Assembly (NCBI GenBank): GCA_902622805.1
Contig: CACNRG010000005.1
Coordinates: 1 to 64,000, forward strand
DNA from: an uncultured Pelagibacteraceae bacterium
GTDB taxonomy: Bacteria; Pseudomonadota; Alphaproteobacteria; Pelagibacterales; Pelagibacteraceae
DNA: 64,000 nt
Reading direction: 5' to 3'
Positions 21,634 to 62,687 of this stretch are shown one piece after another. The translations under genes were made by a program, and so were the position numbers. The stretch's first letter is position 1, and every line of letters starts with the position of its first letter. The notes below the pieces were generated by a model. That model was not told the origin of the DNA. It was given only the letters and a program-made list of their open reading frames with translations, and ran no database searches.

Positions 21634-22700
21634 CTATTAGAAATCAATCTTTGTCTTAAATGATCGATAGGGACTGCGTTTCCATTCAAGTTGTAATACC
21701 AATAGGTCCATCCATTACAGCTTTCAGCACCTAAAATTGTAGCTGCTACTTTATGGATTGAGCCCTCAGTTTGAGCGTGTTTGATGCTGCCATCAGCCAT
21801 AATTTTTGCACTGATTTTCTTTTTATTATCAAAAATTATGGTGCCTGGTCTAATTATTCCCAATTCAACCAATGACCCAAAAGGTATTCTTGGTTTAGAT
21901 CTACCATTTTGCAAAGTATCTAAATAATCATCTTCTATAGGTTTTGCTTTCTTTAATCTTTGTTCGGCAGCTTTAAAATAGGTCTTCTCTTTTTCAATCC
22001 CACAATAATTTCTACCTAATTTTTTTGCTACTGTTGCTGTTGTTCCTGATCCTAAAAAAGGATCTAAAACTAAATCATTTTTATTTGTCGTTGCTAATAA
22101 AATTCTGTGAAGTAGAGCCTCAGGTTTTTGGGTAGAATGCACTTTTTTACCATTCTTTTTTAGTCTTTCAGAACCATTGCAAATCGGCAATTCCCAGTTA
22201 GATCTCATTTGAAGATCATCATTTAAACACTTTAAGGATTGATAATTAAAAGTGTATTTTGATTTTTCAGACTTTGATGCCCAAATTAAAGTTTCATGGG
22301 CATTTGTGAAACGTGTTCCTCTAAAATTTGGCATGGGGTTTTTTTTATTCCAAATGACGTCATTTAAAATCCAAAAACCCAAATTTTGAATTGCTGTTCC
22401 AACTCTAAAGATATTGTGATAACTACCAATTACCCAGATAGCCCCATCTTTTTTTAAAATTCTTTTACATTCGTTTAACCATGAGTATGTAAAGTCATCA
22501 TACTTTTTAAAATTTTCAAATTGATCCCATTTATCATTTACTGCACTTACTTTAGATCTATCAGGTCTTGTTAATTCACTTTTTAGTTGCAGGTTGTAAG
22601 GAGGGTCAGCAAAGACTAAATCAAAAGTTTCATCAGGAATTTTTTTTAATTCCTCTAAACTGTCTCCATTGATTAATTTATTTTCTAAATTAAAAGTCAT
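21630..22700 (-). CDS. ccrM: CcrM-type DNA adenine-N6 methyltransferase (GANTC specific)
   Basis: Cell-cycle DNA methyltransferase of alphaproteobacteria that methylates adenine in GANTC. The 356-residue protein has beta-type order: catalytic motif DPPYNLQ near residue 31, then target-recognition sequence, then the AdoMet motif DPFLGSGTTATVAKKLGR near residue 215. A C-terminal RAMA-like domain (AESCNGWTYWYYNLNG) is typical of CcrM and absent from most other adenine methylases. GANTC specificity is inferred from the family. Its own promoter holds two GANTC sites. It sits next to rnhB and mutY, a known alphaproteobacterial neighbourhood. Confidence 0.95.
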   Translation of the reverse strand: MTFNLENKLINGDSLEELKKIPDETFDLVFADPPYNLQLKSELTRPDRSKVSAVNDKWDQFENFKKYDDFTYSWLNECKRILKKDGAIWVIGSYHNIFRVGTAIQNLGFWILNDVIWNKKNPMPNFRGTRFTNAHETLIWASKSEKSKYTFNYQSLKCLNDDLQMRSNWELPICNGSERLKKNGKKVHSTQKPEALLHRILLATTNKNDLVLDPFLGSGTTATVAKKLGRNYCGIEKEKTYFKAAEQRLKKAKPIEDDYLDTLQNGRSKPRIPFGSLVELGIIRPGTIIFDNKKKISAKIMADGSIKHAQTEGSIHKVAATILGAESCNGWTYWYYNLNGNAVPIDHLRQRLISNS

Positions 22701-22712
22701 TTATAAAATTAA

Positions 22713-22741
22713 ATTAGACTCTAAAAAGATTCTTGGGTCAA
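22713..22741 (-). promoter_or_regulatory. Predicted ccrM promoter with two GANTC sites
   Basis: On the minus strand TTGACC (22741-22736) and TCTAAT (22718-22713) are separated by exactly 17 bases, a good sigma-70 promoter. The start of transcription would fall only a few bases before the ATG at 22700. GAATC (22732-22728) lies in the spacer and GAGTC (22721-22717) overlaps the -10 box. These are the only two GANTC sites in the 118-base gap, and they allow methylation-dependent autoregulation. Confidence 0.6.
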
Positions 22742-22818
22742 CTTACGATTGAATTATATAAGTCAAAATTGTGTAATGAATTTTATAGATAACAAGATAT
22801 AGTGTTTCTACGTGAAAC

Positions 22819-62478: not shown

Positions 62479-62553
62479 GGGCCGTTAGCTCAATAGTAGA
62501 GTACTGCATTGACATTGCAGGGGTAGTTGGAGCGTAACCAACACGGCCCACCA
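62479..62553 (+). tRNA. tRNA-Val (anticodon GAC) with an atypical D-loop and T-loop
   Basis: The cloverleaf is well formed. The acceptor stem is GGGCCGT/ACGGCCC, the D-stem is GCTC/GAGT, the anticodon stem is CTGCA/TGCAG with loop TTGACAT, the T-stem is GTTGG/CCAAC, and CCA is encoded (62551-62553). The D-loop is AATAGTA, so position 18 is A where G is normal. The T-loop is AGCGTAA where TTCGAAT-like sequence is normal: positions 54, 55 and 58 are A, G and T. C56 and G19 are kept. The gene begins 9 bases after the preceding stop codon. Confidence 0.93.
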
Positions 62554-62610: not shown

Positions 62611-62687
62611 GGGCCTGTAGCTCAGTTGGTTAGAGCAGTACACTCATAATGTATTGGTCCCAGGTTCGAGTCCTGGCGGGCCCACCA
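62611..62687 (+). tRNA. tRNA with CAT anticodon (elongator Met or Ile2)
   Basis: The cloverleaf has acceptor GGGCCTG/CGGGCCC with one T-G pair, D-arm GCTC-AGTTGGTTA-GAGC, and the anticodon stem GTACA/TGTAT with loop CTCATAA. The T-loop is the normal TTCGAGT, and CCA is encoded. It is not the initiator, since the first base pair is G-C. The GGGCCTG acceptor resembles the isoleucine tRNA that TilS modifies, but elongator methionine tRNA cannot be excluded from sequence alone. Confidence 0.92.

Follow-up and report, generated by a model that had tools for sequence, protein, structure and literature searches.

The tRNA-Val(GAC) gene of an uncultured SAR11 bacterium appears, from sequence comparison across its relatives and phages, to be a genuine variant of the tRNA fold, conserved and functional, with an alternative elbow. 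The G18-Psi55 and T54-A58 contacts are textbook invariants of that fold, and Psi55 is usually called universal. The near-universal G18, T54, T55 and A58 are missing from this gene, which has A18, A54, G55 and T58 instead. It lies in the window, by which we mean the whole stretch of 64,000 nucleotides that was analysed, from a SAR11 genome (G000) of 0.94 Mb in 33 contigs that is 82% complete.

The tRNA-Val(GAC) gene and its SAR11 orthologs

The gene was found on the forward strand by both ARAGORN and Rfam (62479-62553/62550), with an Rfam score of 53.6 bits against a gathering score of 29 and an encoded CCA end at 62551-62553. It folds into a cloverleaf with a 7-nt anticodon loop and a 7-nt T-loop, in which all 21 stem pairs are formed, with a single G-U at 10-25. 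The D-loop, AATAGTA (62492-62498), is numbered A14, A15, T16 (62494), A18 (62495), G19 (62496), T20 and A21, and since a loop of 7 nt permits only one placement of positions 18 and 19, the assignment of A18 is unambiguous. The T-loop with which it is coupled, AGCGTAA (62531-62537), supplies A54 (62531), G55 (62532), C56 (62533), G57 (62534), T58 (62535), A59 (62536) and A60 (62537), while G19-C56, G57 and G53-C61 are kept. An earlier note on this DNA had described these loops, with G19 and C56 retained, and its description proved exact; it had also called the loops of the other two tRNAs in the window normal, and tRNA-Gln and tRNA-Met are indeed both canonical. The latter, tRNA-Met(CAT) (62611-62687, forward strand; ARAGORN and Rfam), adjoins tRNA-Val(GAC) and is also its neighbor in several relatives (L032, L047, L227 and L507). 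A promoter and terminator scan of the sequences flanking tRNA-Val(GAC) gave nothing above shuffled sequence. Elsewhere in the window, Rfam reports a bablM sRNA (RF01784) on the minus strand at 22697-22765 (57.1 bits against a gathering score of 38).

The form of the gene is conserved far beyond chance, an identical or nearly identical copy being found across most genomes of the genus. Among the 150 nearest genomes, most genus members have the gene, mostly at 98-100% identity, and in a family-wide scan the pattern AATAGTA...GGAGCGTAACC was matched in 89 of 198 genomes, 85 of them in the genus of the window. Eleven genus members were without an exact match, and at least two of these (G585 and G636) have one-base variants of the same form. 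In seven diverged SAR11 alleles from several genera, 11 of the 21 stem pairs are altered on both sides and none of the 147 stem cells is unpaired, while the loops are invariant except for a joint switch of T16/A59 to A16/T59. Compensated stems together with constant loops argue for purifying selection on structure rather than decay, which bears out the earlier view that perfect stems make decay unlikely. A further sequence resembling the alternative form (G618:C1:61700-62200, L502) has T in place of C56, a mismatched T-stem and no ARAGORN call, and is possibly a decayed copy.

Two genus members, G037 and G065, carry a normal tRNA-Val(GAC), and canonical genes were also found in genus g281 and in one sampled member (G134) of the sister family f2. 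The canonical gene of G065 is identical to the alternative form in its T-stem and anticodon arm, and that of G037 in its acceptor stem and anticodon arm; G065 and G000 thus provide an orthologous canonical and alternative pair that differs in the loop bases and a few stem pairs. Because stems and anticodon arm are held in common with the canonical SAR11 orthologs, the alternative gene most likely arose at this locus from a normal valine tRNA of SAR11. The earlier note had regarded a normal T-loop in relatives as evidence against a functional alternative elbow. Such a loop does occur in a few genus members (G037 and G065) and is absent from most, a distribution which suggests that the locus switches between two intact forms and is not decaying.

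Covariation of the elbow positions in viral and cellular tRNAs

The 17-mer of the T-arm occurs in 46 viral contigs, often in phage tRNAs specific for other amino acids, and A18 is present in the tRNAs retrieved with it. We assembled 1,705 unique viral tRNAs with 7-nt T-loops, in which G55 is accompanied by T54-A58 in 107 cases and by A54-T58 in 83, and T55 by T54-A58 in 1,410 and by A54-T58 in 41. In the subset chosen by no pattern and having unambiguous D-loops, G18 is present in 320 of 323 tRNAs with T54/T55/A58 and in 11 of 11 with A54/T55/T58, and A18 in 31 of 36 with T54/G55/A58 and in 11 of 11 with A54/G55/T58. Position 18 thus follows position 55 in both states of 54/58, and 54 follows 58, so that there are two independent pairs. 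After similar sequences had been thinned from the unselected tRNAs, G55 was found in 40 of 41 tRNAs with A18 compared with 5 of 239 without it (Fisher, 1e-41), and among thinned viral tRNAs T58 was found in 44 of 59 with A54 compared with 2 of 815 without it (Fisher, 1e-58). A matched test in viral contigs gave the same picture: the A18 D-arm GCTC-AATAGTA-GAGC goes with G55 in 31 of 32 tRNAs and never with T55, whereas the G18 D-arm GCTC-AATGGTA-GAGC goes with G55 in none of 87. As a rough figure for phage tRNAs, G55 is present in 15 of 687 (2%) other tRNAs at the loci picked by the canonical D-arm. The coordinated change at 18/55 and 54/58 that the earlier note had claimed for a single gene is therefore recovered in a large viral set as strong covariation, and the two pairs are mutually independent.

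These data speak against a double helix between D-loop and T-loop with A18-U58 pairing as a general rule, because 18 follows 55 and not 58; T54-A58 loops with G55 have A18, and A54-T58 loops with T55 have G18. A contact between positions 16 and 59 alongside the A54-U58 loop may be suggested, positions 16 and 59 being Watson-Crick in 49 of 53 tRNAs of a pooled set in which much of the signal comes from pattern selection; in the 11 unselected tRNAs of the same class, the association is not separable from chance. In viral tRNAs, the 19-56 pair can also switch to A-U or, in rare cases, to another Watson-Crick pair. At the viral loci L091 and L070, several tRNAs per phage have T56 with A19 (T-loop TTTGAYY), and one has G56 with C19.

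Both forms can be seen among phage homologs of a single tRNA. Phage tRNA-Phe is canonical in LR756502 (L621), where AACTTGGTAGA accompanies TTCGAAA, and swapped in L055 and others, where AACTTAGTAGA accompanies AGCGTAA. The tRNA-Met of Acinetobacter phage Ac42 has exactly the D-loop AATAGTA and T-loop AGCGTAA of SAR11 tRNA-Val(GAC), although it is another isoacceptor and its sequence gives no sign of common descent with the SAR11 gene; the tRNA-Met genes of Acinetobacter phage 133 and Pseudoalteromonas phage XG4, which were also checked, have canonical loops and no swap. In cells, the same elbow was found in a chromosomal tRNA-Thr(GGT) in four genomes of the alphaproteobacterial family f10 (L229-L232; G285, G384, G151 and G465). 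A tRNA-like sequence in a tRNA array of Pseudomonas phage PE09 (L620, 29439-29500) has the D-loop ..AGGTAG.. and the T-loop CTCGATA; it is unannotated in the record and receives no ARAGORN call.

Sole decoders and the probable loss of T-loop modification

Nearly all relatives have one Val(GAC) locus per genome, as judged by a search with a canonical allele as the query. The complete genomes G012 (32 tRNAs) and G082 (30 tRNAs) each have one alternative Val(GAC) and one canonical Val(TAC), and no second canonical Val(GAC) gene, which the earlier note had thought could speak against function, was found, these two genomes included. With its G34 anticodon, tRNA-Val(GAC) would be the one decoder detected for GUC and, through wobble, for GUU. 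Of the 967 valine codons in the long open reading frames of the window, 561 are GTT or GTC.

The earlier proposal of an alternative elbow in tRNA-Val(GAC) is supported, and the elbow extends beyond that gene to tRNAs for Phe, His and Thr in SAR11 and to phages. In the single tRNA-Phe(GAA) of G000, G012 and G082, positions 18 and 55 are A and G, and T54-A58 is normal; in G000 this gene lies on a separate contig from the window (G000:C10:13021-13095). The single tRNA-His(GTG) of G082 (G082:C1:1045078-1045148) has the full AATAGTA/AGCGTAA elbow and was missed by ARAGORN, although Rfam scores it at 50.6 bits (see also L233, L521, L524 and L539); the same swapped tRNA-His(GTG) recurs in 16 genomes of the genus within the family sample. 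The tRNA-Thr(GGT) of G012 has A18/G55. That of G082 (G082:C1:1040281-1040351, L555) has the T-loop GTCAGTA, with G54/G58 and normal G18/T55, and this combination appears to be another natural 54-58 replacement. Since the tRNAs for Phe and His are the sole decoders of their codons, the swapped elbow must work in translation. These sole decoders are the strongest argument for function, and one that is independent of whether tRNA-Val(GAC) is essential.

The pseudouridine synthase TruB recognizes the motif 53-GUUYRANYC-61 (PMC7912444), which is absent from tRNA-Val(GAC), where the same positions read 53-GAGCGUAAC-61; the bases for m5U54 and Psi55 are both lacking. The Pfam TruB_N domain was absent from all nine genomes of the SAR11 genus that were tested first, five of them single-contig or nearly so, and matched in 14 of 14 controls. 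TruB was not found in any of 23 genomes of the SAR11 genera g1, g281, g282, g283 and g287, several of which are complete, whereas it was found in their sister genera g12, g284 and g288, in nine of ten f2 genomes, in f10 and in most other Alphaproteobacteria. The TrmFO model gave only partial, below-threshold matches in the nine SAR11 genomes, to long proteins (624-640 aa), the outcome to be expected from the paralog MnmG. The claim that this tRNA would not be a normal target for T54 methylation or pseudouridine 55 synthesis therefore holds at two levels, the target bases being absent from the tRNA and neither TruB nor an above-threshold TrmFO being detectable in the genome.

The swapped Phe(GAA) occurs in 14 of 19 TruB-negative genomes and in none of 10 TruB-positive ones (Fisher, 2e-4, a value that ignores relatedness). 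In SAR11, TruB is missing from most of the genomes that have a swapped elbow, but the link between the two is not strict, and there are exceptions both ways. TruB coexists with swapped tRNAs in f10, in g12 and in two g288 bins, and a strict TruB rule was therefore rejected; the swapped tRNAs of TruB-positive genomes include the Thr(GGT) of f10, the His of G241 (A18/G55) and the Val of the bins G540 and G559, which possibly contain misbinned contigs. Conversely, G037 is TruB-negative, yet its Val, Phe and His tRNAs are all canonical. Phages with swapped tRNAs presumably infect TruB-positive hosts.

Origin and significance of the alternative elbow

The explanation that we consider probable is that tRNA-Val(GAC) is a working elongator tRNA, the elbow of which would be a second self-consistent set of tertiary contacts, fixed after the loss of T-loop enzymes. 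As the covariation suggests, A18-G55 would replace G18-Psi55 and A54-U58 would replace T54-A58, probably joined by a 16-59 contact, while G19-C56 would still close the outer corner and G53-C61 would be retained. The tRNA is presumed to be expressed and charged. Selection for U54 and U55 was probably relaxed when TruB and the m5U54 enzyme, for which the TrmFO model was examined, were lost, as the co-occurrence of these losses with the swaps suggests. Such a loss would remove both the benefit of these bases and the cost of losing them, so that compensated swaps could become fixed tRNA by tRNA, and the alternative set would have been fixed repeatedly in SAR11, in Val, Phe, His and Thr. The link to the loss of T-loop modification is plausible but unproven.

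A different driver is conceivable but rather unlikely, namely that the elbow is functional and was selected by phages or by tRNA-cutting defense or toxin enzymes that read the standard elbow, and not by enzyme loss. Phage tRNA arrays often contain the swapped form, which is also present in TruB-positive cells, and changes in the anticodon loop are reported to let phage tRNAs evade tRNA-cutting defenses (PMC10264068). However, that study is silent on D- and T-loops, no nuclease that reads 18/55 or 54/58 was identified, and the main SAR11 pattern tracks the TruB-negative genera. Phages could also have supplied the gene itself, a captured phage tRNA having displaced the native Val(GAC) and brought the loops with it, and the identical loops in many tRNAs of viral contigs and in the Ac42 tRNA-Met are what such a capture would leave. 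We regard this as improbable. The anticodon arm is that of the canonical alleles in the SAR11 genomes G037 and G065, with which the acceptor stem (G037) and the T-stem (G065) are also shared, and a BLAST search of 50,697 phage records with the gene as query gave no match covering even half of it, let alone 80%; by these comparisons its closest relatives do not lie in phages, as those of a recently captured phage tRNA would. Moreover, the Phe, His and Thr swaps in SAR11 would require several separate captures.

The remaining alternatives deny the gene a role in translation or a role at all. The staphylococcal cell-wall type of tRNA-Gly also departs from the standard G18 and T-loop bases, and by analogy tRNA-Val(GAC) could be an aminoacyl donor or regulatory RNA that its odd elbow bars from the ribosome. 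This is very doubtful, since tRNA-Val(GAC) is the only G34 valine tRNA found in the genome, a single gene with no canonical companion rather than the extra isoacceptor expected of the staphylococcal type; it retains G19-C56 and an encoded CCA, and the only Phe and His tRNAs, which necessarily translate, have the same elbow. It is similarly hard to believe that the gene is decaying into a pseudogene, or that it is only loosely constrained as a second isoacceptor that can be dispensed with. The canonical Val(TAC) is present and might read GUU and GUC, and with them all four valine codons; against this stand near-identity throughout the genus, compensated stems and an unchanged loop signature, where a pseudogene would have broken pairs or drifting loops, and the same signature is borne by Phe and His tRNAs that are not dispensable.

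Compared with a canonical bacterial tRNA-Val(GAC), the SAR11 tRNA is alike in its cloverleaf, anticodon, U8, A14, A21, G19-C56, G53-C61, CCA and standing as the sole G34 valine tRNA. The canonical tRNA has G18, T54/Psi55, A58 and usually a pyrimidine at 60, whereas the SAR11 tRNA has A18, A54/G55, U58 and A60 and cannot carry m5U54 or Psi55. Altered D/T-loop contacts reportedly supported translation in suppressor tRNAs selected in the laboratory by Steinberg and co-workers between 2003 and 2007; to our knowledge, those studies include no natural, conserved case of alternative elbow pairs, and the SAR11 elbow differs in being both natural and conserved. Eukaryotic initiator tRNA and tRNA-Ala(AGC) likewise have A54 and show natural 54-58 variation in working tRNAs, but they keep A58, whereas SAR11 tRNA-Val has U58 together with the 18/55 swap; the report describing A54-A58 in eukaryotic tRNA-Ala states that its unusual pairs are unseen in bacteria or archaea, and makes no mention of A18 or G55 (PMC7566577). 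tRNA-Pyl also works in translation without the G18 G19 and T54 Psi55 C56 signature, but it has lost G19/C56 as well, its D-loop is shortened and its stems are unusual, whereas the SAR11 tRNA is an ordinary cloverleaf changed at 18/55 and 54/58 only; the review of non-canonical tRNAs in which it is treated deals with tRNA-Pyl, tRNA-Sec and mitochondrial tRNAs and leaves phages unmentioned (PMC7609411). A study of SAR11 tRNAs does not mention D- and T-loops (PMC3937112), and we found no prior report of the loop sequence, of A18 with G55 or of 18-55 covariation in the open-access literature.

In summary, we lean towards the broader view that there is a second natural elbow state, in which A18-G55 and A54-U58, the latter with a 16-59 contact, are adopted independently of each other. 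It would have emerged on many occasions in phages and on several in cells, and SAR11 bacteria without Psi55 would run essential Val and Phe tRNAs on it, and locally those for His and Thr. Natural covariation of 18/55 between two states provides direct evolutionary evidence on how this contact is built and what may replace it, and for tRNA engineering the swapped elbow offers a ready-made module. Because ARAGORN missed the SAR11 tRNA-His, some tRNAs may be lacking from the inventories of SAR11 and phages. SAR11 bacteria rank with the most abundant cells of the ocean, and where essential tRNAs lack U54 and U55 and no TruB is detectable in the lineage, the purpose of Psi55 becomes testable in a free-living cell.
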